From contig OX439036.1 of assembly GCA_949317995.1 (NCBI GenBank), positions 22,914,854-22,978,853 of the forward strand: a stretch of 64,000 bases of DNA. Reading direction: 5' to 3'. The stretch's first letter is position 1. Every line of letters starts with the position of its first letter. The position numbers and the translations under genes are program-made. The stretch comes from Acholoe squamosa (lineage: Eukaryota > Annelida > Polychaeta > Phyllodocida > Polynoidae). Below are positions 862 to 57,000 of the stretch, piece after piece. The notes beneath the pieces were generated by a model. That model was not told the DNA's origin. It saw only the letters and a list, made by a program, of their open reading frames with translations, and did not search any database.

Positions 862-942
862 ATGTTTAAAAAGTCGAAATCCAAGTCAAACATTTTCATT
901 GGAAGCAAGGAGTCTCTGTCCGGCTCAGGGACATTCGCAAGT
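862..942 (+). CDS. ITGB1BP1: ICAP-1 coding exon 1
   Basis: Encodes residues 1-27, from MFKKSKSKSN to GSGTFAS. The donor GTTAGT follows AGT at 943; it is not perfect but is the only choice that keeps phase 0 with exon 2. A reverse-strand ORF over 609-998 is a shadow of this exon. Confidence 0.8.
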
Positions 943-3900
943 GTTAGTTTTGCCTTGAATAACTTTAGCAATAGGTATTTAATGTTTGATGGTGGCAAGT
1001 GAATACATGCAGTCTGAGTCAGACACTCAGAGACAGAGTGGGTGTGGTCAGTTTGCTAGCCTATTGTCAATATTGACTTTAATGGGTTGACTTATAGCTA
1101 GTTGTATGTCTTTCTGGAAGCTGGTAAGGGCTTGCCACTTTTTCCAGCTCTTGAAATAAGGGAGTGGTCATTATTTATCAACGGGGGGGGGGGGTGGTGG
1201 GTTTGAGGGGGGGCGTAAAATTTTCAGACCCCTCCCGAGGGGGGGGGCTAAAAAAATTTTGACCCCTCTTGAGGGGGGGGGGGTTAAAAAAATTCACCCT
1301 CTTTTTAGCAAAAAAGCCTGCGCGCTACTATAGATCAAAGAGGGGCGCGAAAACTCTCTGCGCCTCCGGCGCGGGGGGGGGGGGCGCAAAAAATTTTGAC
1401 TGCCGTCGAGGGGGGGGCGTAAAAAATTTTCACGCGTCCGCGCGAAAACCCACCACCCCCCCTGTTGATAAATAATGACCACTCCCTAAGAGATTAAATA
1501 GCAAGATTCAAGAAGGCTTTATTGACTATTGTGAGTAATGTAAGGTCCTAAGGATATATTCATGTCAGCACCAGATCAACATTGATTGAGTTATACAGTG
1601 TTTCTATATATGGCAAAATACAATTTATTGCAGAAGGCTTGCTTGATGATTTGCAGTAGGAGTTTACTGAGTGATAAGATGATTTGGAAGGTTTTCTGTT
1701 ATCGTTATGGTTTTTGTAGTCGTCCACAAACTTAAGATACTTCAAAACTTTCCCTGACATTTTGTATTGATTGTATAGAACAAAATAATACAACTTGTTT
1801 CACATCTTGTGTCACATTACAGTGGGAGCAGATCGATTCCACTGGTTTCTTGCCTCTATAGCTTCTTGACAAGCTATCAAGGGTACAGTTGGTATCAATG
1901 CGTAGTTTAGTGACATAGCTTCTAATCGTGGGTGAGTGTATGTGACTCAGGTATTCACATTCACCATATGGCTCATTTAGATAATCTTGACATGTTTTGA
2001 GAACACTGCACCTCGGAGTGGTGCCCACTCGATCCCAATACCCAAACTAAAGTCTGTCTAGTTTGTTTTTGAAAGTGCTTAAATTTTCTGACAGCACCAT
2101 GATGTCAGTAGGCTTGAAGTTGAACCACACGCCGGGAGAAGCTATTCTTTTTTTACTTTGTCCAGATGACCTCCTGTGAATAGTTTTTGCTGATTACCCG
2201 TTGTATTTGTTGAATAATTTATAGACCTCGATCATGTCACCCCTCAGGCGGCAAAAGGCCAGTGTAGGCAGCTCTAGCTCCTGTAGCCGTTGCTGGTATT
2301 TTATATCTCATGGGTGTGAAATCTCCGCCTAAAGGCGGAATTCAGCCTTTTTTGTGTTCACCAGGACCATTCCTGAGATCAGTGTAAATCCACTGAGAAA
2401 ATGAAATACCATTTATTTGGGGGGGGGGGGGTGACTGAAACTATATGGTCTCACATTGTTTTTTGATACCTTCCAAACTGGTTTCTGCTGTTATCTAAAT
2501 CATACTTAAGCCCCTAAAAGGTGGTATAATACATTTAATTAGCTGTTTGAACAACTTTATCTAATGTGAAATTGACTATAATTCATCACAATATATACTT
2601 CAGCCTAAACCACTTTTAGCGTTTCACACCCCTGATATCTTTTAAACCTGGCAACTGCTTTAATACTAGCTTAGTTGCTCTTGGTTGCAACTTTTCCAGG
2701 ATTTCCTTATCCCCTTTCCTGTAGGGCTGCCAGTTTATCCCCATCCCTACCGCTGAGTCCAATACCGTAGCTACTCACCAAACCTCTATGACAAAACCTT
2801 TACCTTTAGGCATACTCAGCCTTCTCAGGAGTCAGGTTGGGATTCAGTCTCCTGGTATTCAATCTTTAGGTAGTGGTCATTATCTATCAACGGGGGGGGG
2901 GGGGGGCATTGCACCCCTCGACGGCAGTCAACAAATTTTGTGCCCCTCCCCTAGGGAATACCTCTCTCGCTTTTAGACATTATGGGTCCCAATTTAGTGG
3001 GGAAGACATTGTACCTACCTAGAGTTACTTCTACAGCAACCAGAACTATTACTTTTTACCAAAATCCCTGTAAGCCAGTGACCACTCATGGTAGTGGTCG
3101 AGGATGGGCCAGCTTGTATGCCCTATAATCATGAAATGAATTCGTTAGCTCATCTCTATCAGGAATAACATCACATATCACGAGCCGAGGACTCAAAACC
3201 ATTTTACACCTTTGCAGAAATCCAGCAATGAGAGCGTTTCAGGATCCGGGTCGCGAGACCTTCTAATGCTAGAGCCGACCAACCTGTTATACCGCGTCAC
3301 TCAGTTTGAGCTACACTTCCTTGGTATGGTGCAAGATGTGAACATGAGCACGGTCCATCAGAGAAACCCAAATGTTCACTTCATAGACAAAGTTGAGGAG
3401 GCACAGGTAATTAAATTCTTCTTATTAGAAATCAGAAAAAGTGATTCAGGTAATCTGACCCTATGTAGCTGATTTGATTTAGTCCTCCAAGTCCCGACTC
3501 ATTGTTTATAAAAATGTATTCAAATATTGTGTCATTATGTCAAAATATCTTTTACATTTATTTCATGGGTTTATGATATTAAAACAAGGAAATCCTACTG
3601 AATTGTGGGCTTCCCTAGCCCACTTAAAAGGGTCTATTTCTCCTCTTTCCTATCCCCTTGGATGTGTGTAGTGCACATATGCACAGGCATTAACATATTC
3701 CTCTGTGAAATTGTGTAATGTAGTTCTTGTCATGAATATGACCTTAGCTGTCGAAATGACGTTAAACATCTATTACTAACTCACTTACTCCTAGGCCACC
3801 CTTAAAAATATTTTCGTTTCCTGTCCAGAGGCCTGGTGGATATTTTTGTGAGAATGGGAAAAATTTTTCCTGAGTTCTGAAAAACAATTCATTTTTTTGT

Positions 3901-6181
3901 CCATCAGCACAAGAATCTAGCTTTCCAATCACTAAATCTTAGAATGTGATGGCAAATTCATGCCGTCCCTGCTGTCAATGCTCATCACAAATAAAAATAT
4001 TTTCCTTAAAAAAATGTTCCCTCCCTCCCTCATAGGTCTGAAAAATCCAACCCTCTGGACAGGAAACGGACATATTTTTAAGGGTGGCCCTACTGAATTG
4101 CTTCTGTTTATTTCACCATTTTTAATATATGACATCATCAGCAGATCATGTGACTCGGATATGTGATAAGGCTACATCATATTCCATCGTCTTCCCTATA
4201 CGAATCTAAATGAAATATAACGTTCGTTTTCACCATGTAAAAAGCTATTATCCTTCCCCACTGTGTGAAGTTGCAGATATCAAAGTTACATTGTTTTTTT
4301 CTCTATCATAGATCGAGGGAAAGATCAGGCTAATAGCCAAAGAAGAAGACCTTGTCACACTAACTATATCGAAACACGGATTGACCGTTCTGGATAAAGA
4401 TAAAAAGGTATGTTGCAAATGAAGGATAAAAAGTTAAAATATATCCCAATTGTCTCAATTAATCAACTCCTAAAGTGATTGCGTAAAATGGAACTACCCA
4501 ACACACATTGAAATCTCTCACGATTATTAACCTAGCCTCAATGTGTGCAGATATGAATTGTCCAGGGGGGGGGGGCAGCCTCGGTCCACGTCTACCCTAC
4601 CCACGGTTGATAGCCTGGGACCAGATCTACACCTGACTCACAACCGCTGTAGAGTGGCTTCCTTGACAGCTGTTGAAACATGAATGTTATTTATTTATAT
4701 GGGGAAAGTACTATTCTTTGATATTTTACAATACCTCCCCTCCATTACTTCAGTTTACAGAGCCTCAGAGGTGAGACTTAGATGTAAACTTCAAAGAAGA
4801 GGATTAGTGTTGTGCATCACTCATCACACCTCAAGGTGTGGAGTGTTCACACCTAGGCCTATAGGTGTGAAGACCTACAACTACAGGCAGGACATATTAA
4901 TTCCATTGATAAGTGTGGGATAGAGGGTGAAGCTCATGAATATGCCACAGACCACATACAAGAGAATGTCACAAAGGTGTAGGTCAAATATGAATTTGAA
5001 AATCTTATAAGAATTAATGCTAGCTCAAATAAGATTCATAATGGAGATTACAGTTTATAATCATATCATCCCAACCGTATAATCAAAAAGTTTTTATGAT
5101 ATTTTCTTGTTTTTCTGTGTTTTCCCTCAATCTGTTGCACATTCATGAGCTTGACCCTAGAGTGGATTCATTCCCACCACAGTTTGCGCCAGGCTGGTGG
5201 CGCAAAAGTCGCAGTAAGCTCTGGTCCCAGCCCGAAGAGCGGAGAGGTGTCGGGTGGGGGGTCAGAGCCTGGGGGGGGGTCAGCCTCTTGTGCTGCCTTC
5301 TCACCGTTTCTGCACAAATACATTTAATTTGATAGATTTGATTTTGGTCCATACCCTCAATGAGGAGCTATAAAGTACATGTATATCCATATCTTAGTTG
5401 AATACTCTAAGTACACTGTATATATAAGAAGTGTTTTACCTACTATAGTACCTCGCGTATAAGGCGCTGTTCAATACAAGGCATCATCCCTAACTCAGAC
5501 CGATGCTATAAGGCGCACCAGGGCCAGAATTCATATGAAAACCCCTGTGTGTAAGGCGCAAACCAAAAACTTGAGCTAAATACCCACTGCTCCTCCCCAG
5601 TTCCAGGCTTATGCGCTGAGTGCCATGGTATATGCTTTCTAAATATACCAACTTTTAGTGATATATAATCTTTTTGTACAGGAAGTACAGCAGCGGCATC
5701 CATTGCACAATGTGGCGCAGGCCGTGTACTATATTGACAGTTTCATGAAGAGTAATGTGGCGCTCAAAGTCGGCCAGGTCGGCAGGAGTGTGTACGACTG
5801 TTACGTCTTCCAGTGCCATACAGAAGTAAGTGACTATAGTTAGTAGTTGAAAATAAAAACTTGAAAGTATATATATAGAAAGCGAGTTGTATGTAGCTGT
5901 TTTATAAGCTATTTTGTTTTGCACCTTGAATAAATTACTGTGAATGCTTTTCATGCACTTTTAAAAAATCCAACATGGAAAATCGAGATGGAATTTGTAC
6001 TATAAATTGGCATTCAAGACATACTGTACATAGAAATCTGAAATGCGTTGCTTTGTTTAAACAATGGATCTAAAAAATAGAAATAAATAACTAAGCGCAT
6101 TATTTTCTTCTTCAGGAACAAGCGCAAAGTATCTGTCAGAGTTTGAAAGGTGTGTTCGATATAGTAACAACGAGAGGATGA
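862..6181 (+). CDS. ITGB1BP1: ICAP-1 orthologue (integrin beta-1-binding protein 1), five coding exons
   Basis: Joined exons 862-942, 3218-3406, 4312-4407, 5682-5825 and 6116-6181 give a 191-residue protein; human ICAP-1 has 200. The N-terminus is basic and Ser-rich (MFKKSKSKSN), like the KK/Ser-rich start of human ICAP-1. Residues about 52-190 form one PTB domain: the first strand ends HFLGMV, the central strand reads TISKHGLTV, the middle has HPLHNVAQAVYYID, and the C-terminal helix EQAQSICQSLKGVFDIV closely matches human EQAQAICKVLSTAFDSV. All four introns are phase 0 with GT-AG ends. The ATG has a good Kozak context (ATCACCATG). In vertebrates the protein binds the integrin beta-1 tail NPxY and the KRIT1 NPxY motif, limiting integrin activation and carrying KRIT1 to the nucleus; this role is inferred here. 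CCM2 lies tail-to-tail downstream. The identification rests on alignment to the human protein from memory. Confidence 0.9.
1160..1486. mobile_element. G-run MITE, PIF/Harbinger-like, complete
   Basis: Near-perfect terminal inverted repeats GGGAGTGGTCATTATTTATC and its complement are flanked by TAA at 1157-1159 and 1487-1489, the 3-base target duplication typical of PIF/Harbinger elements. The interior is made of G runs of 8-12 and short AAAATTTT blocks. It lies in ICAP-1 intron 1 and is non-coding. Confidence 0.75.
2045..2770 (-). pseudogene. Non-LTR retrotransposon reverse transcriptase C-terminal remnant, interrupted
   Basis: On the reverse strand 2770-2640 reads like LEKLQPRATKLV and LPGLKDI. 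After an inserted element, 2310-2205 continues YQQRLQELELPTLAFCRLRG, then DMIEVYKLFNKYNG and a stop; a later FNFKP...STFKNKLD block follows. These are the hallmark C-terminal RT motifs (RLRGDMIEVYK, TFKNRLD) of CR1/jockey-like LINEs. Only the 3' part of the RT survives and it carries stops and frameshifts. It lies antisense in ICAP-1 intron 1. Confidence 0.75.
2318..2634. mobile_element. MITE inserted within the LINE remnant
   Basis: The ends are inverted (GGGTGTGAAA at the left, TTTCACACCC at the right), and GATAT-like flanks are present on both sides. Removing it restores the continuous LINE order from LPGLKDI to YQQRLQ. It carries a CCGCCTAAAGGCGG palindrome and a 13-base G run. Confidence 0.6.
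2868..2975 (+). mobile_element. Fragment of the G-run MITE
   Basis: Starts TAGGTAGTGGTCATTATC, then a G run and a CCCCTCGACGGCAGTC block shared with 1390-1410 (reverse). The right end is missing. Confidence 0.5.
3218..3406 (+). CDS. ITGB1BP1: ICAP-1 coding exon 2
   Basis: Acceptor ACACCTTTGCAG, donor CAG|GTAATT, phase 0 at both ends. Encodes residues 28-90: the rest of the Ser-rich leader (SSNESVSGSGSRD) and the first part of the PTB domain, ending NVHFIDKVEEAQ. Confidence 0.9.
3794..4089. mobile_element. MITE with GGCCACCC ends in ICAP-1 intron 2
   Basis: The left end GGCCACCCTTAAAAATAT is mirrored at the right end, and the match continues through CGTTTCCTGTCCAGAGG for about 38 bases. CTA flanks both ends (3791-3793, 4090-4092), consistent with a 3-base target duplication. 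Confidence 0.7.
4312..4407 (+). CDS. ITGB1BP1: ICAP-1 coding exon 3
   Basis: The acceptor follows a T-rich tract and the donor is AAG|GTATGT, phase 0 at both ends. It encodes 32 residues (IEGKIRLIAKEEDLV, TISKHGLTVLDKDKK), the central PTB strands. The equivalent CCM2 exon (23903-24001) has 33 residues and the same phases. Confidence 0.9.
4765..4876 (+). repeat. Dispersed repeat with an AGGTGTG palindromic core
   Basis: CATCACACCTCAAGGTGTGG, then GTTCACACCTAGGCCTATAG. A second copy lies reverse-complemented at 43078-43185 and extends to the flanking ACTTAGATGTA... segment. No coding content. Confidence 0.55.
5448..5575. mobile_element. Degraded TACCGTA-family MITE fragment
   Basis: Contains CCTCGCGTATAAGGCGC, CTATAAGGCGCACC and GTGTAAGGCGCA, the subterminal motif of the family described at 36914-37140. 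No clean ends. It lies in ICAP-1 intron 3. Confidence 0.5.
5682..5825 (+). CDS. ITGB1BP1: ICAP-1 coding exon 4
   Basis: Acceptor TTTTTGTACAG, donor GAA|GTAAGT, phase 0 at both ends. Encodes 48 residues containing RHPLHNVAQAVYYID and SVYDCYVFQCHTE, matching the human strands ending YSLWVYQCNS. Confidence 0.92.
6116..6181 (+). CDS. ITGB1BP1: ICAP-1 last coding exon with stop
   Basis: Acceptor TTCTTCTTCAG. Encodes EQAQSICQSLKGVFDIV, then TTRG and TGA at 6179-6181. This is the C-terminal amphipathic helix that closes the PTB fold. Confidence 0.92.
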   Translation, partial: EQAQSICQSLKGVFDIVTTRG

Positions 6182-6746
6182 AGCAGCAGAATATCTGACA
6201 TTGTACAGTGCGTGTCTCTTCTGATACTTGGTCAAAACTATAGCAAATATAGACACGATCATTTCATATATATTATCAAGTTATTGAGGAAAAGGCTGCT
6301 GGCGGTCTTCCTGTGCACTGTTATGTAGAGCAAACATCATAGGCTTAGGCTGGTTATTTCTGTAACCCAATACTTGGGATTTACCAGAGTGCAGGTTATG
6401 CCTATGTACCAAAGGAACCTCTTTCTGATTTGGGTTTTTAGATAGCTATCACAATTTCCTTTTCGCTTTGTTTACCAAATAACCTTGGTACTGTAACGTT
6501 CTAAAAGTTTTACAATGAAGAAAATAATGTATACATAAATCTTAAAGCGCTTTCACATATGGATTACATACACATTTACTGTATACCTTGTTATATGAAT
6601 CCATTCTATATTTTGTTATACCAATTGTCTGCCCAGACTCATTTGAAATGTGGCATTTTCATATACTTGTACATTAGTGTTTTATCGCATATATGTTCAA
6701 TGAAATATTTCTCTGTAGAATAGACGTTAAGTATTGATGTGAAGAA

Positions 6747-6752
6747 AATAAA
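6747..6752 (+). terminator. Candidate polyadenylation signal of ICAP-1
   Basis: First AATAAA downstream of the stop codon, giving a 3' UTR of about 0.57 kb. No transcript evidence is available, so this is only the best-placed hexamer. Confidence 0.4.
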
Positions 6753-7768
6753 GTAAAATGGTAAGCAGAGTATAGTGTTATGAATTCGGCTAGAACAAAA
6801 CAGTAAAAAAAGAAGAAGAAAAGAAAACTAGACGGAAATCACTGTGAATTGAAATGGGGATAATTTATTGCATAACCCTTTAACATTTGCATCACTCTTT
6901 TATTTTGACCAAATTACAAAGAACTGAAGAGTTGGGAACTTTGCATATGATAACACTTCCATGGTGGAAAAATCTTATATGGATCCAAAAGATGCCCTGT
7001 AAATCCTGTGTTCCTGAAAACTTTACATACATGGTGTTTCTAATAGCTACAAGGACACTTGACTAGGCATTCATTTTCTCCCCACAAATCACACTCAATC
7101 TTTGTTATGATAGTATCCACAGCATAATCAAGCATTTACCATGATGCCGTATAACAATAATTGTATTCGTCCTAAGCAACGTGTTGCAGATATTTATTCT
7201 CATTTGCACCGCAAAAAAAAAAAAAATTCTAGATAAAATAAAAGATTTCTTCAAATGACAAATTTTATTTTTGCAGTTACCCAGACATTTCCAATAGTCT
7301 CTGGCTCTCATTGACATTGATATATTTTTTTTTCTGAGCCACAGTCCTGTGAATGCCAAAGACCTTATTCCGCAGAATTTACCGTAAAACCCAGCGTATA
7401 AGCGGTATGTTATAGAGTAACCAAGAGTCCAGCTACGACCTATAGGTTCTTGCTGAACTAAGGATGTAGCTTATAGGCAGGGTTTGAAACTACGCAACAG
7501 TACAAAACCAATTCTTAAGCCACATGTGTGACCATACATGTATTCGACATAAAGAGCACACATACATGTACCGGTACTTTATTAAGTGTACACCCTTTTT
7601 TCCGTTTTCGAAACCCAATCAAACTACTGGGGTATTCGACATATATATTTAGGATGTTCCTTAAGTACACTGAGCGCTTATTACGGTATGTCGAATACAG
7701 TAAAGCTTAAACCCAATTTCAGAGTATGGTTTATATATGTGAACACAGCCTATATGCAGGCTTTTACA

Positions 7769-7983
7769 CAGGCATGGGATTCTTCAGGATATATCCAAAA
7801 TCTCGGATATTTGAAGGCTAAATTGGTCATCCTTGTGGTTTGTACAGATCCAATGAGAAAAGGATTTAACATTAATAAAGTGGGTGGGCCTTTTTATCCT
7901 TTAAGATCCATCTCAAATACTACCCCAGAGAAGGGACAGGGGAACCATCTCGGATATTTCTTCAAAATCCAATCCCATGCCTG
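7769..7983. mobile_element. Small foldback (MITE-like) element
   Basis: CAGGCATGGGATT at the left is mirrored by AATCCCATGCCTG at the right, with further imperfect pairing of the GGATATTT segments. About 215 bp; it explains a 135-codon ORF across it. Confidence 0.45.
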
Positions 7984-11939: not shown

Positions 11940-12096
11940 TCACGTGTTGGGTAGGAAGGACTCAGGGTTAGTATTCATGTCCACGCTAGTCTCCATATTC
12001 TCAATGTCTGTGGAGATATCGTTAAGTATCCGGTCGAACTCGTCGACCATGTAGGGGCTGTGGTTGCTGAAGGTAGAGGCCCCGCTCAGCGTGCGC
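11940..12096 (-). CDS. CCM2: CCM2 last coding exon (C-terminal helix and stop)
   Basis: Acceptor CTGTTGCAG, entering in phase 2. Begins RRTLSGAST (human RRALSTTSS) and carries DEFDRILNDISTDIENMETS (human [20 protein letters not shown]), then ends NPESFLPNT with TGA at 11942-11940. The acidic helix is the part of mammalian CCM2 that binds the MEKK3 N-terminus. Confidence 0.95.
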
Positions 12097-15000
12097 CTGC
12101 AACAGACAGAACGGACGCAAACTCAGGGATAAGACTACAGAAGGTACTACACAGGAGGGAATGGTTGTTAATTATTCAGTTTTTATGTAAGGTAAAGAAT
12201 GTGTTTATTTTGGAAACTGAAATTGGTTAGCATCAAGATATGTTAGATTCGTATAATGATTACCATAATCTCCCGTGTATAAGGCGCACCTCGCGTATAA
12301 GGCACACCCTGAGTTGAGGAGAATGCTATAAGGCCCGCCTAGGTCTTGATTTTTGAGGGTTTAGTACTTTTCTTTAGTTAAATTACCCCGCCTATAAGAC
12401 GCACCCCCTCCTCTGGGAGCTTCTATAAGGTGCAGTAGGGCTTTGATTCACGTATAAGACGCGCCTTATACATGGGAGATTACGGTATATGTTTGGAAAA
12501 TGAAAAATCTGGACATGAGATACTGGGTTTAACTTAACATTTATTTACACTCTACTAACAAAGTAGTGTTAAGTATTTAAGAAGAAGTAAAATTGTCAGT
12601 GATAAAGGCATGGGTCTGTTTGATAAGTTTCAGAGCCCAGGACCATACTGTTAATGGATCTATTTGGGTAGACTTCAACAAACACTTCTCTTTTCAGGGA
12701 AGTGGGTTAATGGATGTGGTAGTGCGTTCCTTAAGTAACTAGGTATTATACACCTTGCTATTACTTAACAAACCAACACCTTACAACAAAAGCTTTGACG
12801 CGATATAGAAGACAAATCCTTACTGGGCAAAAAAGGATTGGTCATTTCTATCAATCCATTTTTACTGCGAGCTCCTAAGAATCTCACACCCTTGCCACTC
12901 CTATGGAAGTTTTCTCTGTATAATCAATGAATTCAATATCATCGAATATTCTAAAGTAGTTATTCTATCTTATCTAACACGGCATCCGAAGCTGATAGGG
13001 GATTTGCTGGGGAAATGTCCACTGATGCGCTTAAGATATGAAAAAGCAGTTTTTCTGCTATATCTGATTTTCAGATATATTTAGGGCCTGAATTATTTGA
13101 ACTACCATACACAGCTTCCTCAGTGAAATTGCATACCAATACTTTTTTTAGAACAGACTTTAAACTTTATTTGGTCTAGATTTTTCATCATGTATACATA
13201 GGCACACTTGTAAGTCATACATATATTCATACAATACGAAGCCTATCATACACTTGTTTTATATCTAGAGGTTCCTGATATCTCCTGTTACATGTATCAA
13301 GATCTGGTCTAAACTTGGACTTCATTTTGAGCTTCTTCGAACTTTTTCATGAAAGTTAGTCTATGTAGGGTCCTAGAGCTCACTTCAATCAAGCTTTATA
13401 TACGTATCTCCATGGCAAGCTTTCATGAAAAATCTCCGAATTGACATTCAACTGGACGCATCAGTGGAGCAGGGATTTTAACTTATTTGAATTTAGTACT
13501 AACCGTGTTATACGAAAATATTTTAAAATATAGTTGGATGTTCCAAAGCTATATCAACATCGTTTTTTTCAGTCATACCTTTTAAAATTTCTGAGAGTTA
13601 GACCATGTATGTCTATGTGCCAAACTAGGCGAGTACCTATCGGCAAAATGACAATGTTAGTATCTTTTAAGCTAGGGAAGATACATAATCTACATAGTAA
13701 GGCCAAACCAAAGTAAAACATTGGTCTATGGATTTCCCGCTCCTAATTTTCCTATATGGAAATTTTATTTTTAATTGAAAAAAACTTTGTCTATGGATTC
13801 CGCCCGCATCTTTTTCTGGAAAATTGATTTTTTTTTTGTTTTTTTTTTTGCAAAGTCCTTACAGTGTCAACCAATAAAGATACAGCAACAGCAGACCACT
13901 CATTGGATAGGTAGAGGTCTCTAGATTTGAACATTTCAGTGTCTATTCTGCATTTAGCAACTAAAATACTAAATTTGAGAAAAGGAGCAAAAAAAAAAAA
14001 AAAAAAAATCGCCCTCTTCACATCTTTGATATTGAAAATCCATAGACAAATAAATTTTTTTAGAAAAATAAAATAAAAATTTCGCCCTCCCGCTCCAGTT
14101 TTCAAAATGAAAATCCATAGACCAATTATTTTATTTGGTGTGGCCTAAGTAGTAAAGGTACAGAATAGATCTTTTTAGAGTTGAAATAGACAGATTCTAC
14201 GTTTCTGGTAATAATGCCAGAAAGCCACTTTAATAGATATGTAATATAGGGACTGAGTTGGTCCATTTTGGCTGTTGTTCATGTCGGCAAATCATTAAAA
14301 TCATCTTTAGAATTTATATTTATAAGTGTTTGACATTTCTTTTTCTTTTAATCGTTCTTCTATAATCGAGAAGATATTTTTTTCCATATCTTATTGAACA
14401 AAAACAGCATTATATTCACACGTTTTTTTAAGATAGTTAATAGCTAGATGAAGCATTTGTGATCGTAATAATGCATGATTTAATACTTGATATTCAACAT
14501 ACTTACATTTTGCTGAGTTTACTATCGGTATAACTGATACTTTGTGGTTGATATGATGTTCAGTCAGTGAAGTGCTAATGAACCATTTTATCTTGTAAAA
14601 TTATGATAAACAAATAAAACATTCAAATAGTAATGGTCATTAATCTCCTTGTGCGAGTTCACTTACCTAAATCTCGAACTGTGGGAGTGATTTTCACTCC
14701 AGTTACTACTTTGACCGAGTCCCACATTTTCTAGGAATGTTTCAAAGGCACCAAAGTCTTCGTCTGGTATAAACGGCCGCATACCTGGTGTGATAAAACA
14801 TAGTGTTATTTCTTAATTAATTTGTATGTTACCAGTAAAGAAAAACAGTATGGTTTAAATTAAAAACAAGACTGAAAATAATTGATGAGTTGTCTTGATG
14901 TTAGACACGTATATTTCTATTAAGAAAAGGAACTAGAAAGGGATCGTCTTCTAATGTCTACCTGACATAGATTCATTCTAGATCTCGTTCTTGACGCTTT

Positions 15001-18000
15001 ACAGTCGCCAAATACATTTATCTTTTTAATAGATTACAAGTGATAACTTATCCCTACCAGCCAGTAGGTACTTCCGAGACGGCCCATACAGTTCAAGCAC
15101 CTTCTCACAGAACTCTGCACATGGCATGCGGTTTGTACGCCAGTCCTTCAGTAGAACTGCAAACCTACGTAGCTCTCCAGGGTCCAACTTAGTGTGCAAC
15201 TGAAATGGAAGGGAAAATTTGAACAATAAATTAGATTTTGTTATTTACAATCTACAGGAAGACAAACGGTGAAATAAAAAAATCAACTGCCAAAATATAT
15301 ATATAAAAAAAAGTAACGAAAGTTGTTTTTTTTTAGTTCAAAGCTGATGTTTTAAAAGGTGGAGAATCACCAAAAAAGACACCAATGACCCAAGGGCCAA
15401 TTAGTATGAAAACTTTTCTCCCTGTATTATAAAGAGTTTTGACATTTTCAGTCATAGTCAACCACTGTGAATACATCCTAGCCCCTCAACCCTGGCGAAG
15501 CTGACACACCTGATGACCAACTGGTGACTGTGGCGAAGTGTGCTTTGACCATACACACAGTCAGATAGCATGGGATGGCTGCTTTCACAACCTTTTCTCA
15601 GAGTCTCCAGTGATCCATCTAAGCCTTTTCCCCTTCCGGCTAGGATCACCTTCATCAACATCTGATATCTCTTTACCAGTCGCAAGTGCACAACATCTAC
15701 GGGCAGAAGCGGATCAGTGCAAGTCTCCTAGAAGACCAGAACACTGAAGATTCACTGCAGTCTGTCTACTGACACTTACAGACGTGATCAATGTCATGAA
15801 ATTCCTTTGGGAAGTGGTGGCTCTAGAGAGATTTGAACCCTGGACCTCTCACACACTTTCCAGCCCACTAACCCACTGAGCTAATGAGGCAAGCTTAAAC
15901 TGGATGGTGGTTTCCAACTCTATATAGGATATGAGCCAATTAACTTGTGTGTGACATGAGTGTTAAGAGATGGGAAGAATACCCTTGTGACCCATCCATC
16001 ATGGTGACCCACTGTGACTCATCATGGAAACCATGATGATGACCATGACCCCATGTTCCATCCATCCATCTTGATTTGATATCAGTGGACAAGTTCCCTA
16101 GTGACTCAATCCTGCTGTTCTAATCTACAGGTTAAGGTAAAGTGAAGCGCAGACATAGGTGTAGTACAGAAACTTTATCCTTAGAATGCTTACTTTATCG
16201 CTCATAGTCCCCAATGTGTTATGTGTTTAGCTTGGATGCTGTACACATTGCCTGCTGAAAAAAGTGTCTTAATAGGTGATTACCCAAAGGACTCCATGTG
16301 CTAATTTCATCGTCAAAATCTATCTGACCCATAGACCCAATGGTTAAAGGACTTGTAGTCAGTATAGCTCCCAAAAACATGATGTAAGTACAACAGAGAA
16401 AGACATCACTCACCATAAAGGACAAAATGTAGTTTTTTTATTTGGGGGTGGGGAGTGAAAAGGGATAGTGAAGAACAGGGGTTGAATAGGAACGGACCCC
16501 TGATAATCCTGGGACCTTGAGAAGCATTACATTAGTGTGGTGTAAAGACCTTTCAATCTCTTTAAAACAGCACAATACATACTCTTTTAATATTACAAAT
16601 ACTAGGGTGGCTGGAGGGTCAGGCTGATTCTCCCTCTCCTATCTGACACTATAGCAAACAACACTTTTCTAGAAGGCTCCCATTCTGAATAGGGGCAATG
16701 TGGAGATGTCTAATAACTTGATAAAAGATGATCTTGGATGGGGGCATCCCCTATATCAAGGATTAGGCTAAATTCATACACTTTCTTGGGGAAATCTATT
16801 GAAAAACTTCAAGGTACATGCCTGTTTCACCTTTGCGTCAGTTCTATTCATGCCTTCTTGTTTAACCTGACCCTTGGGAGATCGACCACCATTTGACGGC
16901 AAATCAACATTTTTTTTTTTCTTTTTAAATATATCTACTCTCTTCAGGCTATCCTCCCAATATTTTTATTTCCACCTATACAAATTATTTCTGTTGAAAA
17001 TAAGCACTTCAAAAAAGCCCTTTTTAGGTCAAGGGTCATTAACAAAAAAAAATGAAGTGGGAAAAAACAAAACTGCTACAAATAGCTCTAAACTAGAAGA
17101 ACATGATGGTTTTGGAGTCATTATGATATAGGCAGGAGTCAGAGGTCGTCAGGGCATCTTCTAGAGGTCATTTACCAGGTCCCAGGCCCTTATTATTGGC
17201 TTTAGGTCCAGAGAATGGTCACTAGAGAACACTTCCTGCATTGACCTATAGAGAGTATTGTGCATGATATGTAGTTCATACAATAGGCACTAGGGACAGT
17301 TAAGTGCCATTGATGAGAATATCACAGTATAGCTCCAGGAGAGGGGTGTTCAGAATCTGTCAGAAAGAATACAATGGTGGGATATGCCCTATCTGCCATA
17401 ATCAATTACCTATAAAGTGTAGGTACACACCAATGTGATTTTGTTGAATGCGTGTTTCAAGGCTTTCAATGCATATATGATACACATGTGTACGATATGT
17501 ATATAAAAAAATCCTCCGGCCACCCTACAAATACTGTGTGCGGTGCACTCTTATAATAACATGGAGCATAATTACATATAACACCAGAAAAAAAGTATAA
17601 TGTGGTGTCAGCCTGCACCATGGTGCCGTGTCTTTATGAATGCTAATTAAACACCATGACCCATCTGCCTACCTCAGGTTCCTACATCACCAGAACGTCC
17701 ATGACCTAGTTGGAACTGTTTGCTTTAGTAGACAAACATTGACTTCTTATACACTTTATGTAGTCTACAATTACTTTTTGGTTGACATCATATTTACACC
17801 CAAACAGTGTGACAGAAGGATAGACTTGACCTAGTAGAGAACCAAGATCATGGTTATCTGCAGGCTTAATCTAAGAGGGAAGTCGTTATGGCCCATTTGG
17901 TGGCACCACTGACAAAAATTCTTATCTTATCTTAAATCAATATTGACAGAGGTGACATTTTCTCTGTAAACTTTATAAAACAATCACTTAGGCTAATCTT

Positions 18001-21000
18001 AAGTACTCAAAAGGCACCATAAACCATATAGCCATTGATTTCATATAGATTGAACATGATGAGTATGTGTTAGAGATATTAGTTAGTCCCTTTTTCAATT
18101 TTCTTTGATAAGGATAAGATATATCTTGTCTACACAAAAAAAAAATATAGGACAGCATTTTGCAATGCAAGTAACTCGAAAGGGCACCTAATCTCTTCTT
18201 TTAGGCCCCTTCTGATACTAACCTCATGTTTTCTTTGAGCATTATCACTGTCAATGGTCTAAGCCTATGGAGAATGCATCCATTATCGCTTGTATGTTTC
18301 ATTGGCAAATAACTCCTCTCCTGGCCAGTTAAGCATTGCACAATACCAGCAGGTCTTGAATAATGATCCATATTAACCATAAAAACGCATGAGACAGTGT
18401 AATTCTCCTCCATTTTGTTATAATCCATCAGTTTGCATGGCACTGTGAGTCGATCGTCTCGCTGTCCGCCATTTTGGATTTTGATGTTCTGTGTGCATAC
18501 GTGACCCCTCCTTGCCGGAAGTAGCATTTTCGACGGAGAAATGGTATATTCTATCGATTTAACTTGAAATCAATGGCTTTTTGAACATAATCCATGTATC
18601 TTTGGCAATATCAATCGAATTGAATCGAATATACCCTATCTTTTTACTGTTATAGCCCCACAAGTTTATCGTCTCGCTGTCTGCCATGTTGGATTTTGGT
18701 TCTATCTGCGCATGCCCAACCCAATTTCCATGGGTATTTGGGTCAATTTGCACGATCACGGCTTTGTGATGTGAATTAACGACAGGGCGAACACGTAATT
18801 ATTTTATCTTTTTAATAATACATATCAATTCAAATCATATCCTTTGTCAATTCTTTATCATATTACTATATAATAACACTGAATAATTGAAAAAAAATAG
18901 TAACGACGACTATTACGACAATAGAGACGCGCAGACGGATCAAATTACGGCAAATTCATCAACATTCATCAATTATTTGCACCACTCCGGACCAAAAACG
19001 CGGGAACGTTGAATCTATCTGCACCTCTTATGGGATTTAACATAGACCGGAAAAGCGTCGTAGTTTTTCTCTGTTAAGGGGCACTGAATGGATCAATTTT
19101 TTACCCGACGCTTATAACTCTTTCGAGTTAAAAAAGAGATCAACTTAAAGTGAAAATCTAGGAGAAGTCTTATTACCTTTTTGACATAGTCATTGCGCTG
19201 CTCCTCTGCAGCGGCGCTTTGGTCGCTCTCACTTGGAGTGGCACTGCTCGGCCGGCGAGAGGGCGGATGGGAACGTGACTCATTGGACGTCGATATCGTG
19301 CCCGCCTGCTGGTCCAGATCTAGCCGCGACTGTGTAAATCTGCATTATAAAAATTTAGCTACTTAGTAACATAATCCAGATGAGAAAGATTAAAGCAACT
19401 AAAAGATTTGACGTGTGCTATAGAACACTTATGGCCCAGGTTACCTACCATATGAGACTTGTCACTATAGTGACAGTGTCCGAGTCGTCAATGCTTAAGG
19501 CTATGGAGAATGCACCCATTATTGCTCACATTTTTTATTGGCGAATAACTCCTCTCCTGGCGAGTTAAGCATTACACAATATCAGCAGGTGTTGAATAAG
19601 GATCCATATTAACCATAAAAAGGCATGAGACACTGTAATTCTCCTCCATTTTGTTATAATCAAGCAGTTTCGATGACACCGTTAGTCGATCGTCTAGCTG
19701 TCCACCATTTTAGATTTTGATGTTCTGTGCACATGCGCGACCCGTTCCTTGCCGGAAGTCGCATTTTCGACGGAGAAATGATAGATTCTATCGATTTAAC
19801 TTGAAATTAATGGCTTTTTGAATATAATCTATGCATCTTTGGCAATATCAATCGAATTGAATCAAATACATCCCCTCAATTTACTGTTAAACGAAAAATA
19901 AAAAAGCTTACGATGGACCACTCTGTGAGCATGTCTGAACTCGCCTTGCCGGAAATGCGATAGCTATAACATGGAGGTCGTATTAACACATTTGCTACAT
20001 GAATGGTCTTAACCGGTCCTACACGAAAATTAAATCATCTTTTTTGGAAACCATCGCATGGTCTTCAACTTACCTGCTGAAAAAAAGCTTCTTAATTGTA
20101 CAATTCCCATAGGAGCCCATGTGCTATGTCTATCGCGAAAATCTATCGCACAATGCTATCCTATGGAGCCTCGTTTTCATGAGAAAGTAAGTCAAACATG
20201 TCAGGTTTTTTCTGCAGCCTTTTTCAAAGAAAAAAAAATTCTTTTTTGGGAATTGTGCATGTACAATGAAAGACTAGATCCTAAAGAACATGTTTCCATG
20301 ATTTTATGTTTAATTAACCCCCAATTTTGATGAACAATTCCCATCTAAAGTTCCAATTCATGATTGTCAGTTTTTGACTGAAAAAGCACCGCCAATGAAA
20401 CTGCCTTTGGGACCAGACAAGGAAAAGAACCGTTGCTATTCTTTAAGAAAAGTAGGTTAAAGGCTATTTCTGGTGAGACTAAGGGGACCTAGGGTAACTT
20501 GGTTGACACAATAATAATGAAAAATCAATTGAAAAAACTTTTAAGATGTTACTTACATTGTCATGTCATGAACTTGCCTTGGCGCCGTTGGCGTGGACAT
20601 ATTGGAGTGATCTGAAAAGCAAAAATACACTTAATGAATAAACTATGTCTCAGAAATTGCTTGCTGCCTCAAGATACCATTGAACCTTTGTTGAAACAAA
20701 CAGCATTTGTACAATTTTTAGTCTGTAATTGAACAGCCATATGTTAGTTAATTAAGCACATGTGGACCGTTGGTTAACTAACCCTGAGTAAGATCTATGA
20801 AAAGAGACTATATGCTAGATAGAACCAAGGAGGATACCTAAATCTCTATGGATTAAAATACCTATCCCCAAAAACATGGTGCTCTAGTTAAACTCCGACT
20901 TATACCTCTAATACGAAGTGTGCTCGTTTTACACACATATAGGGAGCCCAAGTCTCGCGATAAACTATTTTAGATTTGGAACTAAAATGACCAATATTTG

Positions 21001-24000
21001 AATTGACCTGAAGGCCCACCATATATGAAATTTTAAGGCTCAACTCTCATTCTTAAAAAAATTATGCTAGGCCTAAAATATTCCCCTATCCTTCAAGCCT
21101 GTGGGTGATAATATGCTGAGCTCAGAATCCGCCCGCACGTGACGTGACTTCGCCTCCCTATAGCATTCCAGTTACAGACAATTAATGTTGAACACACAGA
21201 TAGTACATAGTTAGTAAATGGGTTATATGAGTGTCATACTTAGATATTTTAGTATCTGTAGTAGTAACCAACTAATGACGTCATGCTGGAGGAGGGCGAG
21301 TTCAGACCTGGCATGACGGGATTGAATTCTCCATACACCTTCAGCATTGTAAAATTGGCAACAAAAAAAAATGATGAGGGGGGAGGGGTCAAAATAGTCA
21401 AATTTGGCATGACGTCATTTTCGGATGGTCCCAAGGTTGACCAAGTTGTTTATAGTGTGAATCAGTTATCTAAACCATGCGGTGAATGGGTATGAACAAT
21501 TTTTTTTTTAATTTATCAGAAAACCCTCCACCTCGCCATGCCCACAATACTGTACACGTACCCTGGGTTTAACAAATCTATATTAGCAGTAATGCCTATA
21601 GTTTATAAAATCTTTATTAGTCTTCTGATGGTGTACATTGTGAACTATCATGATGAATCTAGTATTCCTGTATTCATTATCGACGAAAAAGTCACTCATG
21701 CTTGAAGAAAAACTATTGATCTTCGTTAGATAACAGGGCTACAACATGCAGAATATAAACTTTTATGGGACTCCATGGATGTATAATATACTGGATTTAA
21801 AAAGCACACATATTTTGGTATCAGTTACAAGAAATCCTTGAATATTTTGGATGTTAGGAATACCTGAACCCTTGACAATATTCCCCGAATACTAGTACCA
21901 ACCATGTTTAATAGTGTGTGATCAGAGTATTATAGCCTGGTAACACTGAACAAAGACGAATACCTCAAGTTACAAACTACTGGGCTAAACATATCATTGT
22001 ACTTCAAGTCTGTGTCCAGTGTGGTCAGGCTTTAATACTCCCATGAAATGAAAAGGAAATGGTGAACTAAGGGTAAAAAAGAGGCATAGCGCTGTGTTAG
22101 CGGCTTCCCAAGGCACATAAAGATAGTCAAGGCTTACATATAGGGCCATAGGTGGCCTCCTCAACGGCCCGCAACACATCACGATACTGCTGGGGACCCG
22201 GACGCGGAGGGGTAGCCCCCGACGAAGAAGAGGATGTGACTGCATTGAGGTCATTCAATATTACTGAATCAGACTTGACCTAAAGTAGCCCTATCACCAA
22301 TATCCATACGCCAATTTACTGAATTATGGTAATTTCCCAAACAGATAATTTTCTCCCGATCAGATTTAATGTCCAACAACCCCTACCTCGCCCTTTCCGA
22401 GGCATGGGAGAACATGTCTATAGTGGCTACTGGGCTTCCATTTGATAATTATAAGGGATTACTTCTTTAGGGGACAGGAGGTCAGGTAATCACTTGGGCA
22501 ATTCAAATGTCAGAAGGATTGACTTATACACAAACTTTTAAAGGTTCTCACTTTATCTAGCCAGCGTTGGCAGCAACAGAAAAGTTCAGAAGAAGATAGG
22601 AAAAGTAATTTCTAACCGGCACTACATTTTCCAATCGAATTCTACGCAAACATTCATTAATTTCTCTAGAGCGTAAAAAGCCATATGAGCTGCTCACCAC
22701 TCCTTGTTGCACTCGATGAGCTGATAGAAGTCATGTTGTGCGCATGGGTGCCCTCAATGATTTTGGTATCCAGGTACTGCCTCGTGGCCTCTGCGTACAC
22801 TAACTGGAAGCACTGGTCAACGAGGGCACACAACTCCTCAGCTGAAGTCTGACAACATTATACAAGGTATCAGATTAGAGCAAGGGTGAACAATAACATT
22901 ATGATCTGTGGACCACCACAGCCCACTATTAACTCGATGTAGCTAAAACGTATACAGGCCAAGTTAACTTTTCCAGTGTTTCTTTTTTCTTTTAGGAAAA
23001 GATCACTGTCCTGGGCCAATCACATATTACGGGACAGTGATAGGATCGACCTCTTTCAGAGTGATCCATTAAACTCATGAAATCGACATCTTTTTTAATA
23101 GCCATTATGCCAAAGTCCAAGCATCATAATTTATCCACTTACCTGTTTATCACAATATAGGACTGCTAATTGGCATACACTTTCCGCAACCCTGTCAGGG
23201 TCACCTGTACAAAGAGAAAATGTAACACTCAGTTAATCAGTGCATAGCGCCAAATGTGATTGGAATAGCACTAAACACACATAGTACAACGATATATTAA
23301 GGCCATGCCAACCAACACTAATCCGATGAGTTTTCCAATAGTAAAACATGTCGGATTAGAAATCAGACCAATAGAATACCCCATCTAGGCAAGAAATCTG
23401 CAACGAAGGAGAAGTACTGAACATTTACTGTTATGTTTATTCGAAGCAAATACAAATGGATGATGCATATGTGAATAGAAATATTGGCCCAGATAAGAAT
23501 ACAGAAACTGTCTTCACCATATTTGAGCGCTAGAATATGTTGGTTGTCGTCCCGGATGTAGCACAAGGCAGCAATCTCGTGGATCGGGACGCGCAGGAGC
23601 AGCTCCTATAAAAGTAATATAATATAATAATATTAAATAGTATGTATTACATGTAAAATGTACAAAAATGGTCAACTGGAAACTTGTAGAATGTTCAGTT
23701 CATTTGAAAGGAGAATCTTGCTTAAGCGGGTATTTCAATATAGCTGATTCGGGCCGATGCAGAAATCGGCCCGAAATTGTGCACGAATCAGGTATAGTGG
23801 GCATTAGGGCATTAATGTGCCACCAATAAGGGATAGGGCACCTGTCCCAAGATATCTAAGAGGACAAAGACTATGTCCTGTATACATTAGTAGATATCTC
23901 ACCTCATTGCCGCCCCAGTGGGAAATCTTTACATTGTGTATCGTCACACAGAATATGGCATCGTGCTCGTGCGTCACCCGCCATGGTATCTTCTCCTCCC

Positions 24001-27000
24001 GCTGAAAGCAAGACAGTCATTTACATATAAAAGTTTAACTCTTGGATTTACTAGGGAAGAAAAAATAATGTGGTGTTCTTCCAACCATCTTCTTCTAAGT
24101 CTTTGATCCCTAAATTTGAACTATTTCCTTTGATTGTATACTGTGATAATTCTATTGGCAATGTCTCGGAGAAAACACAAGAATTCATTTGCTCACCATT
24201 TGTCTTTCCTTGCTTGTGATTATGAACCATTTTCATGCACTAAATACCAGATGGACATGTCATTGGACAATAAACCGACATTGGCCTATGACCAACTTTC
24301 GGTACACTTAAAGTTACATCTTTCTGGTAATGAAATGACATTAACTGTTCCATATAATAGATAGACCTTTTAGTCCTTTCTCTGTAGGGAGAGGAAGATA
24401 AAAGGCGTTGTTGGAGAATTTGGTCCAGTGTAGGAAAGGTTGTGATAGGTCAATGCTTTTATTTCAACTAGTGTATTGGTGAAATCCTTCCACTGCACAT
24501 ACCTGACAGCAAATGTGAGGTTTAATATTTGAGAAGGAGGAGAGGGCAGACAAGAGCAATGTTACCCAAAGCCTTTTAGGTCACTGACAAACAACTGGTT
24601 GCTTTCCCCTTTACAAAGTGTTTTGCCACCATGTAAGATTTCTAAAATTATTTTTGTCTGTGTAGAAACTCTCTAGTAAAATTCTAACTTCCTCATAAGC
24701 GGCGTGACATTTTCGTTCTTTTGTTATTACGCTCACGTATATCTGACAACTGTTTCCCTGGTGTAGCCACAAAAGGAACTCCACAAGGCTACACTTTTAG
24801 TAAGAAGTCATGCTGTGCCAAAAAACAAAAGAAAATAGAAAAATGGCCATTTGTCATAACTAACGCACCATAACCACTCTTCCCCTTAACCGTCTTGATA
24901 TGGCATGATGCATCATAGGATCATTCATGCATCATGCTGACCCCGCTGATACATCCCTGGAAGATCGTCATGATGCACTGATGAAGCAAGTTAATCACAA
25001 TCCAATCACTGATGTATCATAATTGCCAATAACCATTTATAAACTGCCTCAATCCTTGAGTTATGTGCCCTTTATTGGTAAAGCACTGAGTTATACTAGC
25101 CTTAATATAAAGAAACGAAAGTGATAGCTCGCTGCAGAAATTATGTCTCTATCGGTAACTTTCACCAGAGTTTCCCACAGTATGTCATGGTTTGATTTTT
25201 ATGTCTAACACTTTCTTGTCGTTCCGCCTTACTCCTTTTATATTCAACATATTCATTCATTTTCTATACCTATATGATTAACTACCTTAAAGGCCCATAA
25301 TTCACAAGGGGACAATAGGAAAAGATTCAAAGATTCAAAGAGTAAGATCTCTAAGAATGCATAGCCTACCTGTAATGCCAGTCATATTTTAAGATTTACA
25401 ATGAATATATTAAGTTAAAAGTTGTAAAGTATTCAAATATTATGATCCCTAAGAAAGCACAGCATAGCTGTGATGCCAGTTGGCAATTAAAGATTAAGAT
25501 TAGTATTTAATGTAAGCATACATTAAAAAAAATACATGTTGATTTATAAAACTTTTTTTGAACAAATTGTTCATTATTACAAGAATGCACCTTTCGTGGG
25601 TGACTTGGATGACACTCTGTATTCCTAATGCATTCATGATGTATTCACAATGTATTCATGATGTGTTCGCAATCTATTCATATATTGCCAATATTTTCAT
25701 TATGTATTTGTAATTTGTTCATAATATATTCGCAATGTATTCATGATGTATTCTGAATGTATTCCTAAAGTATTTATAATGTATTCCTAATGTGTTCCTA
25801 ATGTATTCCTGCTGTATTCCTAATGTATTCATGATAAGTTCACAATCTATTCATGTGTTCGCAATCTATTCATGTATTGCATGTATTTGTAATGCATTGC
25901 TAAGGTATTGGTGATGGGTTTCTAAAGTCATCGTGATTTATTTCTAAGGTGTGCATGATACGTTGTTAACGTATTCGTGATGCATTGCTAAGGTGTTCGT
26001 GATGCGTTGCTAAGGTATTCCTGGTGCGTTGCTAAGGTAATCATGATGTGTTAAGATATTTATTATGTGTTGTTAAGGTATTCTTGATGTGTTGCTAAAG
26101 TGTTCGTGATACAGTGCTAAGCTGTGCGTGATGCATTGCTAAGGTATTCTTGATGCATTGCTAAGGTATTCATGGTGCATTGCTAAGGTATTCATGATGC
26201 GTTGCTAAGGTAATCATGATCTGTTGCTAAGGTATTCATTATGTGTTGCTAAGGTATTCCTGATGTCTTGCTCAGGTGTTCGTGATGTCTTGCTAAGGTG
26301 TTCGTGATGTCTTGCTAAGCTGTTCATGATGTGTTGCTAAGGTATTTGTGGTGAATTGCTAAGGTATTCATGGTGCGTTGCTAAGGTAATCATGATGTGA
26401 TGCTAAGGTATTCATTATGTGTTGCTAAGGTATTCCTGATGTGTTGCTAAGGTGTTCGTGATGCGTTGCTAAGGTAATCCTGGTGCGTTGCTAAGGCAAT
26501 CCTAATGCATTGCTAAGGTATTTGTGATTGGTTGCTAAGCTATTCATGGTGCATTGCTAAGATATTCATGATGCATTGCTAAGGTATTCATGATGTGTTG
26601 CTAAGGTAATCATGATGTGTTGTTGCTAAGGTATATGTGATGTGTTGCTAAGGTATTCATGATGTGTTGCGAAGGTATTCATGATATATTGCTAAGGTCT
26701 TAATGCTGCGATGCTTAGGTATTCATGATGTGTTGCTAAGGTATTCATGATTGGTTGCTAACATTTTCATGATGCGCTGCTAAGTTTTTCATAATGTGTT
26801 GCTAAGGTATTTGTGACATGTTGCTAAGGTATTCATGATGTGCTGCTAGGGCATTCATGATTGGTTGCTTAGGTATTCATAATGCATTGCTAAGGTATTC
26901 ATGATGCATTGCTAAGGTATTCATGATGCATTGCTAAGGTATTCATAATGCATTCCTAATGTATTCATGATGCATTTCTAATGTATTCATGATGTCCCTA

Positions 27001-30000
27001 TCCCTAATACTAAAATGATAATAGAATGGAGGGCAATGGAGCCTAGCTCCTACCTTGACGGTGGTTGCTGTAAGAATGATAATATGCAAGCAATGTCCTA
27101 ATATTGCATACCGTAATCTCCCGCGTATAAGGCGCGTCTTATATGAGGGGTTTTAGTTATCCCCAAATCCACAAGGGGGATACCAAGACCTTTCTTTTGA
27201 TATGTTACACTTCCCCTAAGTCCTAATAGAACATAATGTGGGCCAGAGGGTTCTGGGGGACCCTAGGTACACATAGCTTTTTGAATTTTTAAAATCCATT
27301 CAGTAGAACAAAAGATATGAATTTTTGATTTTTTTGGTAATATTTACAAACTCTGGGTGCGCCTTATACGCGGGCTGCGCCTTATACACAGGAGATTACG
27401 GTACTATAGCTACCCTTATACCACGATTTCTTGGTTACTCAGTGCTTTTTGGTGGATATTCCCAACCACATATCTGTCGATATTGCACAGCATTAATGCT
27501 GTAGCATGACTCTTGGAAGGCGTGCGGTTATCCATGGATAACCCGCACCCCGTGCGGTTATCCATGGATAACCGCACGGATATTTCATTGCCATGGTAGG
27601 GGTCGAACCTGCAATCTCAGGTCCTTAGTCCAACTCCCTATGCAGTGCGCCACAGGGACTGACGAGAAATACTTGGTTCGAACCACGTCTGGATATGATA
27701 CAAAGCCGTGTGCGCTGTCACTGCCGGGCGACGAGGTGCAGGGCTCGACAAATCCCTGTGCCCAATGCCCGTGATTCAAAAATAATTCTCTGGGCACAAA
27801 ATAAATTTCAAGTTGTGCCCAATGGGCACACATGTCAAAAGACTACAACACTTTGTTTATTGACTTGGGGACATATGCTTATTCCACTATTCTTCTGCAC
27901 TGCAGAAGTTATCTGTTTGTACTTTTATTGTCTTGATACTACTGTCCCATTTATTGAAATATGTAATTTTGAGTAGAGAAAGCAAAGGTGTCGGGCAGAG
28001 AGCTTGCCTGCTGGGCACAACTTCTCCAAACTGATTTGTCGAGCCCTGGAGGTGTATTCTACACAAACATAACCGCGAGACGCATTGAAAGGCGGAGAAG
28101 CGGTGGTCTAGCGGTAAGTGCCTTTAGCTCAGCCGCGTGAGGTACGCGGTTCGATCCTGGTCCAGGCGCATCTTTTTTTCGCCGTGTGTGCTGTCGCTGT
28201 CCGCTGCCGGGCGACGAGATGTATTCTACACAAACATAACAGCGAGACGCATCTTTTTTCGCCGTGTGCGCTGTCACTGTCCGCTGCCGGGCGATGAGGT
28301 GTATTCTACACAAACATAACAGCGAGACGCATTGAAATATTTAGCCGTGTGCCGCTGCCTGTCTGAGCCGCGACGGGCGCTGTCCCTGTCCGCTGCCAGG
28401 CACCGAGGTGTATGTACCTGTGTACACACACAATGGCTGGCATCGAGTCCCGGGGAGGGGGAATAATTTTTGTTTTCGAATTGAATTTACCGTAATCTCC
28501 CGCGTATAAGACGCAGTGCGCGTATAAGACGCACCTAGAGTTTTGGATTATGCCCAAAAGAATGAAATATTCATAACTTTGCTTCTACTGAATGGATTTT
28601 CAAAATTTAAAAAGCTATATGTAGCTCTGGCCTCCCAGACACCACTGGAGCCATCTATGTCATAATATGACTTAGGGGGAGTGTAATATATCAAAATAAG
28701 GCTCTTGGTGTCCCCCTTGCGGATCCAGGGAGAACTAAAACCTCGCGTATAAGACGCGTCTTATACGCGGGAGATTACGGTATTGGTATTCTATTGATTA
28801 TTTATTGGTTTCGTGTGTAAATAAAGTGGACAATGGATAAGTCATGACTCGTGTGTGTTAGCGAAGGCCTCGTGTCATTATCCTTCACACACACTCGTCA
28901 TGACTTATCCATTGATTACTTGTTCACTATGGCTAAATGTCATACCTCATAGGAATGATTCATATTAACAAGCTAGGTTAAATATTTAGACTTGTTGACT
29001 ACCTATTAAAAGGATTAGTGGTCTACCAATTGTCAAGGGCTATTGATTTTCCAAGTGTTTTGATGTTTAAGAATGAATGGCTATGATGACCTATGCAAGT
29101 CTAAATGTCTCAGAAAGTAAAGAGTTCTGTGTTGGCTAGAAATGGCCAGTTGGCTATGGCCAACTGGCAATAAATGTATCATGGCCCATTGGTCGCTATG
29201 TTTCATAAATGCAGCCTTGGCGAGTAACTCGTCCAAGCTTCATTAATTTTGCCGACACTTTGCACTCCTACATTAGCGGCCCTCATAGGGTTAATAATAA
29301 TTATATTTTTTTCATTATATCACTGACCTTGCCCCTGTCGATGACCCTGAGGACGTCGGTGCGGTTTGTCGTGTCGAGTTCCAGGGGTATGTTGTAAATG
29401 ATGCCCGCAAACTGAAACATGAAAATGACAATTATACTCTAAATCTGATACATTTTATTTAAGAAAAAAAGGGTTTTTTCCCCCCAGCAATCTGACGCTG
29501 CCTGAAACAAACCTACTTTGTAAATTCAAGAAATTTTCAAGCTTCTAGCTGTTACAGTCACGACTTGTTTGACATTTTCGGTTGAAGGGGAAATGAGGTT
29601 AAATGTGGGCGGTCAAATGTATCATTTACTGATTCATAGATTGTCCTGGTATTCACTGAAAATAGATATGATTTGTGATATGGTGGCACGACCAAGGTGC
29701 AAATGGTTATTAATGTACCAGTTCTGATCTGTTTTATACTTTTTGGTGATGCTAAATGCTGACTATACACTGAATAATCTTACATATAATGATACTAACT
29801 ATCCCAGAAACACCAGAGTAATGAAATATTAAAATTTGTACTAGTATTGCATGAAATTATCTACCCACTATGGACCCCAATCCCCACCCCCTACAAGTTG
29901 TACAACTCAGAATTCTATCTAGAAATGTAGTTAAAAAAAGTGTCACGATATCAGAGTCAATACAATCATAAACTATTATAGCTGTGTGTGTAAAAATAGT

Positions 30001-56985: not shown

Positions 56986-57000
56986 TAAGGTTTGTCCAAT

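Follow-up and report, generated by a model that had tools for sequence, protein, structure and literature searches.

According to PMC6778778, the PTB domain of NUMB is encoded by five or six exons in the animals compared (exceptions being C. elegans, Drosophila, Ciona, Oikopleura and possibly the sea lamprey). Exons 2 and 4 are reported to be separated by a splice position, exons 5 and 6 to encode the stretch from strand beta-4 to helix alpha-3, and chordates to have between exons 2 and 4 an extra exon 3 that is typically 33 nt long (36 in Ciona, 39 in Branchiostoma). For human CCM2, the exon table of PMC6825194 gives lengths of 30, 174, 84, 184 and 137, which place introns after codons 68, 96, 157+1 (coding base 472) and 203. 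We compared these gene structures with a window of 64,000 nucleotides from the annelid Acholoe squamosa (GCA_949317995.1, contig OX439036.1; C2:22914854-22978853 of a 1.48-Gb genome), in which ICAP-1 and CCM2, two genes encoding PTB-domain proteins, are tail-to-tail neighbors with 5.8 kb separating the facing stop codons, and in which all three PTB introns of ICAP-1 coincide with introns of CCM2. The initial annotation read this coincidence as the mark of a duplication of one intron-bearing PTB gene. Our comparison indicates instead that the three introns are very probably ancestral to PID-type PTB genes and were retained, marking common PTB ancestry and not a duplication private to ICAP-1 and CCM2.

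ICAP-1 occupies the forward strand from 862 (probable first exon) to 6181 (stop codon), and CCM2 the reverse strand from about 40095 to 11940, its N-terminal exon ending at 39862 and its stop codon lying at 11940. The PTB domain of the former matched Pfam family PF10480 (ICAP-1_inte_bdg; E 4.7e-18, 66 bits, cut-off 25) and the PID family PF00640 (42 bits, cut-off 20.9), had 4dx8 as its best PDB match (E 1.6e-16), and is 31% identical to human ICAP-1 (ITGB1BP1) across the domain. The CCM2 PTB domain is closest to the malcavernin structure 4wj7 (E 1.8e-27), and the C-terminal harmonin-homology domain matched PF16545 (CCM2_C; E 5.6e-23); the piece of CCM2 searched (FAGII onward) gave no PF00640 match at E<=1. 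Both identities are firm as far as sequence can assign them. No second copy of ICAP-1 was seen in a protein search of the genome, which returned five matches, four of them in the window gene and one elsewhere at E 7.9. The probable first exon of ICAP-1 ends in phase 2 (donor at 974), whereas the next clear acceptor, before 3218, is in phase 0; the gene must therefore have either a further small exon that is missing here or different splice sites.

The six junctions are as initially annotated (VEEAQ/IEGK, DKDKK/EVQQ and CHTE/EQAQ in ICAP-1; DRGK/REEK, GGNE/ELLL and CDKQ/TSAE in CCM2; slashes denote introns), all of them in phase 0 with GT-AG boundaries. Likewise borne out are the middle exon of 32 codons (96 bp) in ICAP-1 versus 33 codons (99 bp) in CCM2, and the two further introns in the CCM2 domain, K/FAG (phase 0) and KY-G (phase 1). 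The shared positions are termed S1, S2 and S3, and K/FAG is termed S0. In a 22-row PTB alignment blind to introns, the junctions of the two genes share columns 51/52, 109/110 and 199/200, with an offset of zero at all three sites in six MAFFT settings ('auto' repeated the L-INS-i offsets); positions were compared on sequence alignments only. The matches at S2 and S3 are firm, whereas that at S1 is good only to about three residues, as aligning window ICAP-1 to human CCM2 by phmmer, with the FID motifs matched, leaves the first junctions three residues apart. The probability of a match at three of three sites, within three codons and in the same phase, is about 4e-4 under random placement and about 1e-3 with phase bias; the coincidence is therefore real.

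It is not, however, restricted to this pair. A PF10480 profile search of the A. squamosa genome gave no matches, the individual exons probably being too short for it, and PF00640 was used instead; its 21 exon matches, which included neither ICAP-1 nor CCM2, were assigned to at least 14 genes, the best candidates being scored (SHC, FE65, LDLRAP1, NUMB, APBA/Mint, GULP, NOS1AP, RABGAP1, ANKS1, JIP, DAB, the PID_2 genes L006 and L013, and L014). All three introns are present, in phase 0 and with GT and AG, in four of the 14 (NUMB, GULP, APBA and ANKS1), and six more (DAB, SHC, FE65, RABGAP1, NOS1AP and L014) carry one or two of them. Counted by site, S1 occurs in six genes (the four together with SHC and FE65 PTB1), S2 in seven (the four, DAB, SHC and FE65 PTB2), S3 in eight (the four, DAB, RABGAP1, NOS1AP and L014) and S0 in two (NUMB and GULP); NUMB S0, ANKS1 S1, SHC S1 (acceptors), ANKS1 S3 and L014 S3 (donors) were seen on one side only. 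The length of the middle exon is no distinguishing feature either, being 33 codons in GULP, 29 in ANKS1 and APBA, and 26 in NUMB. Because the same introns recur in other PTB families, they look ancestral and are silent on which genes are sisters. The intron finding is thus ordinary in kind, and broader than the initial annotation saw.

In the PTB domain of GULP1, as in that of CCM2, S0 to S3 are all present in phase 0 around a 33-codon middle exon; unlike in CCM2, the phase-1 intron is absent from the exon read, and GULP1 is not known to have a harmonin-homology domain. A. squamosa NUMB has S1, S2 and S3 in phase 0 as in ICAP-1, with S3 off by two residues. Going by residue numbering, we take the four introns of human CCM2 to be S0, S1, the phase-1 site and S3. 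In the lengths tabulated in PMC6825194, human exon 3 is 84 bp, as is the corresponding exon in the window, whereas exon 4 is an unbroken 184 bp, lacking S2, where window CCM2 has exons of 99 and 88 bp. In the KRIT1/FRMD8-type FERM F3 locus L044, whose match does not reach the cut-off of its family, the exon continues without a break across the S2 hairpin position (HRGQTVYSTYAYRDI), which hints that the intron set belongs to PID-type PTB domains.

That the three introns nevertheless mark a duplication private to ICAP-1 and CCM2, with the adjacency as its relic, is most improbable. The exact coincidence of the three junctions in every alignment setting, the grouping of the ICAP-1 and CCM2 rows in all six trees (see below) and their proximity would fit such a history; against it, NUMB, GULP, APBA and ANKS1 carry all three introns, which already refutes their use as a private mark, S0 links CCM2 not to ICAP-1 but to GULP and to NUMB (seen there at the acceptor), and the aligned families showed no intron exclusive to ICAP-1 and CCM2.

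The precision of the match differs between sites. S2 falls at column 109/110 in ICAP-1, CCM2, NUMB, GULP, APBA, DAB and ANKS1, with an offset of zero in six settings; in SHC it is one column off, and JIP has an acceptor about four residues ahead of this place. At S0, CCM2, GULP and NUMB agree exactly. With the same tolerance as above, the matches of NUMB, GULP, APBA and ANKS1 to ICAP-1 at three of three sites have probabilities of 3.5e-5 to 1.1e-4 each (9.5e-5 to 4.2e-4 with phase bias), and are at least as improbable by chance as the match to CCM2. Parallel insertion at favored spots, such as loops or proto-splice sites, could be suspected for S1 and S3, which lie in loops and whose offsets vary with family and setting, but is hard to reconcile with an S2 that is residue-exact in seven families, an S0 that is exact within strand beta-1 in three, the phase 0 common to all sites, and the chance probabilities just given; we regard it as a very unlikely source of the shared positions.

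Several points weigh against common retention. NUMB and GULP are off by two to three residues at S1 (five of six settings) and S3 (all six), where ICAP-1 and CCM2 coincide exactly; S3 of NUMB, GULP and DAB lies two residues from that of ICAP-1 in all six settings, and that of RABGAP1 two or six. The S1 loop is of variable length, with offsets from -3 to +9 by setting for NUMB, GULP, APBA and SHC and of +2 or +11 for FE65; under E-INS-i, S1 of NUMB, APBA and SHC shifts by eight to nine residues. On a strict view one could say that several families share exactly only S2. The introns are also absent, the exon reading through, at S1 in DAB, at S1 and S2 in RABGAP1 and L014, at S2 and S3 in FE65 PTB1, at S1 and S3 in FE65 PTB2, at S3 in SHC, JIP, LDLRAP1 and L006, at S2 in LDLRAP1, and at S2 and S3 in L013. 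In addition, the junctions of FE65 PTB2, NOS1AP and L014 were located outside the alignment, by their distance from conserved residues; gene names are readings of translations and of tblastn with human sequences; and the chance test represents parallel insertion into loops by random placement only, with intron numbers per family set by hand.

Common retention is still by far the most probable reading. On it, an early PTB gene would have had phase-0 introns at S0 (beta-1), S1 (helix to beta-2), S2 (beta-3/beta-4 hairpin) and S3 (before the C-terminal helix), and later PTB families would have inherited this four-intron arrangement and then lost parts of it, window CCM2 retaining S0 to S3 and ICAP-1 retaining S1 to S3.

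Whether ICAP-1 and CCM2 are sister genes is a separate question, and here the duplication proposed initially fared better: its intron argument fails, whereas the close kinship of the two genes has support from profiles and trees. The ICAP-1 and CCM2 rows, four in number, lie on one side of a branch in all six trees, with support of 98/96, 98/99, 100/99, 98/99 and 97/99 (all starred) in five (trees comprised 9 to 14 PTB domains each, with one or two rows per domain and human rows partly entered by hand). The group remains starred when FE65/RABGAP1 or GULP/APBA are removed. Among pair profiles of 11 families, ICAP-1 and CCM2 are mutual best matches with a score of 62, the next being GULP for both (51 for ICAP-1, 30 for CCM2); no Pfam family other than the ICAP-1 model reached the CCM2 PTB piece, and that model did so at E 4.4e-4, short of its cut-off; and ICAP-1 is the best non-CCM2 partner of CCM2 in all four single-sequence tests (two hhalign, two blastp). 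The sister look of the pair derives from protein sequence and not from introns, and on this basis they are probably sisters.

A less favored but possible alternative is that they are not sisters, that two fast-evolving PTB families attract each other in the trees, and that their adjacency stems either from a rearrangement that happened by chance or from functional clustering of two KRIT1 partners. Both families are long-branched, and window ICAP-1 on its own matches GULP better than CCM2, both in hhalign (scores of 38 versus 32) and in blastp (GULP 6e-7; CCM2 0.005, behind DAB, LDLRAP1 and SHC). The 25-row tree supports the group at 94/92 without a star, and four of the six trees place human ICAP-1 weakly with CCM2 rather than with window ICAP-1 (73/58, 92/71, 66/43 and 69/43), the ICAP-1 pair being weak in the remaining two (56/12 and 82/54). 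The profile matches, the single-sequence tests with CCM2 as query and the starred support after family removal argue in the opposite direction.

If the tree is taken at face value, the chance that a given sister gene lies within 40 kb on either side is about 5e-5 (80 kb in 1.48 Gb), and that for any pair among 16 PTB genes is below 1%; among the other 14 PTB genes identified, no two are near each other. Chance proximity being improbable, an old tandem duplication whose products were kept together is favored, and plausible. Both proteins being PTB adaptors that dock on KRIT1, the genes may also form a functional cluster. The simplest reading of the tail-to-tail arrangement would be an old inverted tandem duplicate pair. 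That ICAP-1 and CCM2 are such a pair, that the CCM complex grew partly by local duplication, and that CCM2 keeps the full ancestral animal four-intron PTB layout is a combined proposal that is about as likely as not. Were the two genes neighbors in further phyla as well, an origin by duplication of two KRIT1 partners would be indicated.

Since several families share the layout, matching introns in two PTB genes are a poor guide to sisterhood. The phase-0 sites S0 to S3 also offer a yardstick for tracking intron loss, as any PTB gene can be scored for them. Neither the shared layout nor the ICAP-1/CCM2 adjacency was reported in the titles and abstract openings among the matches listed in literature searches.

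In genes for which both ends were read, the S1–S2 exon is symmetric (phase 0 at each end), so that its insertion, duplication, loss or skipping keeps the frame. The ICAP-1beta isoform presumably lacks the exon between S2 and S3, which a literature search did not confirm. In APBA/Mint (C5), two tandem beta-2/beta-3 exons lie 112 bp apart between S1 and S2 (L030:6891-6977 and L030:7090-7176), each of 29 codons with phase 0 at either end; they probably serve as alternatives in the PTB domain, each excluding the other. This doubled exon fits such in-frame change, as does chordate NUMB exon 3, which, on our reading of the exon arrangement in PMC6778778, sits in S1. LDLRAP1 (L003) and NOS1AP (L009; acceptor side only) have a phase-2 intron that splits the Arg codon of YR/I about ten columns after S2, a candidate for another shared PTB intron.

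Table 1. Exons and introns of ICAP-1 and CCM2 in the window.
Feature	Position	Strand	Details
ICAP-1 probable first coding exon	862..974	+	MFKKSKSKSN...; phase 2 donor at 974
ICAP-1 exon, linker, beta-1, alpha	3218..3406	+	..FIDKVEEAQ/
ICAP-1 intron S1	3407..4311	+	alpha to beta-2 loop; phase 0
ICAP-1 exon, beta-2/beta-3	4312..4407	+	32 codons (96 bp)
ICAP-1 intron S2	4408..5681	+	beta-3/beta-4 hairpin; phase 0
ICAP-1 exon, beta-4 to beta-7	5682..5825	+	48 codons
ICAP-1 intron S3	5826..6115	+	ahead of C-terminal helix; phase 0
ICAP-1 last coding exon	6116..6181	+	includes stop
CCM2 N-terminal exon	39862..40095	-	..YERRPLKSVV..SFIEKECK/; 5' limit provisional
CCM2 intron S0	29412..39861	-	in beta-1 (K/FAG); phase 0; same place as in GULP, NUMB
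CCM2 exon	29328..29411	-	84 bp
CCM2 intron S1	24002..29327	-	phase 0
CCM2 exon, beta-2/beta-3	23903..24001	-	33 codons (99 bp)
CCM2 intron S2	23606..23902	-	phase 0
CCM2 exon	23518..23605	-	88 bp
CCM2 intron KY-G	23205..23517	-	phase 1; not seen in other families aligned
CCM2 exon	23143..23204	-	..CDKQ/
CCM2 intron S3	22849..23142	-	phase 0
CCM2 exon, C-terminal PTB helix	22698..22848	-	
CCM2 remaining exons	11940..20611	-	20611-20557, 19339-19177, 15199-15058, 14784-14667, 12096-11940 (harmonin-homology domain, stop)

The S1 intron of CCM2 contains diverged short repeats (gaataccttagcaa-like), with a long run at 25640-26960 on the reverse strand. Elsewhere in the window, pieces of a Copia-type long terminal repeat retrotransposon lie at 60594-62060 on the reverse strand (Retrotran_gag_2, E 1.3e-30; Pol_BBD, E 4.3e-8; and, narrowly missing its cut-off, gag_pre-integrs, E 2.8e-6), and a tandem repeat at 56321-57000, to which no gene is assigned, has a 54-bp unit, a self-match of 93% at a 54-bp shift, and several open frames on both strands.

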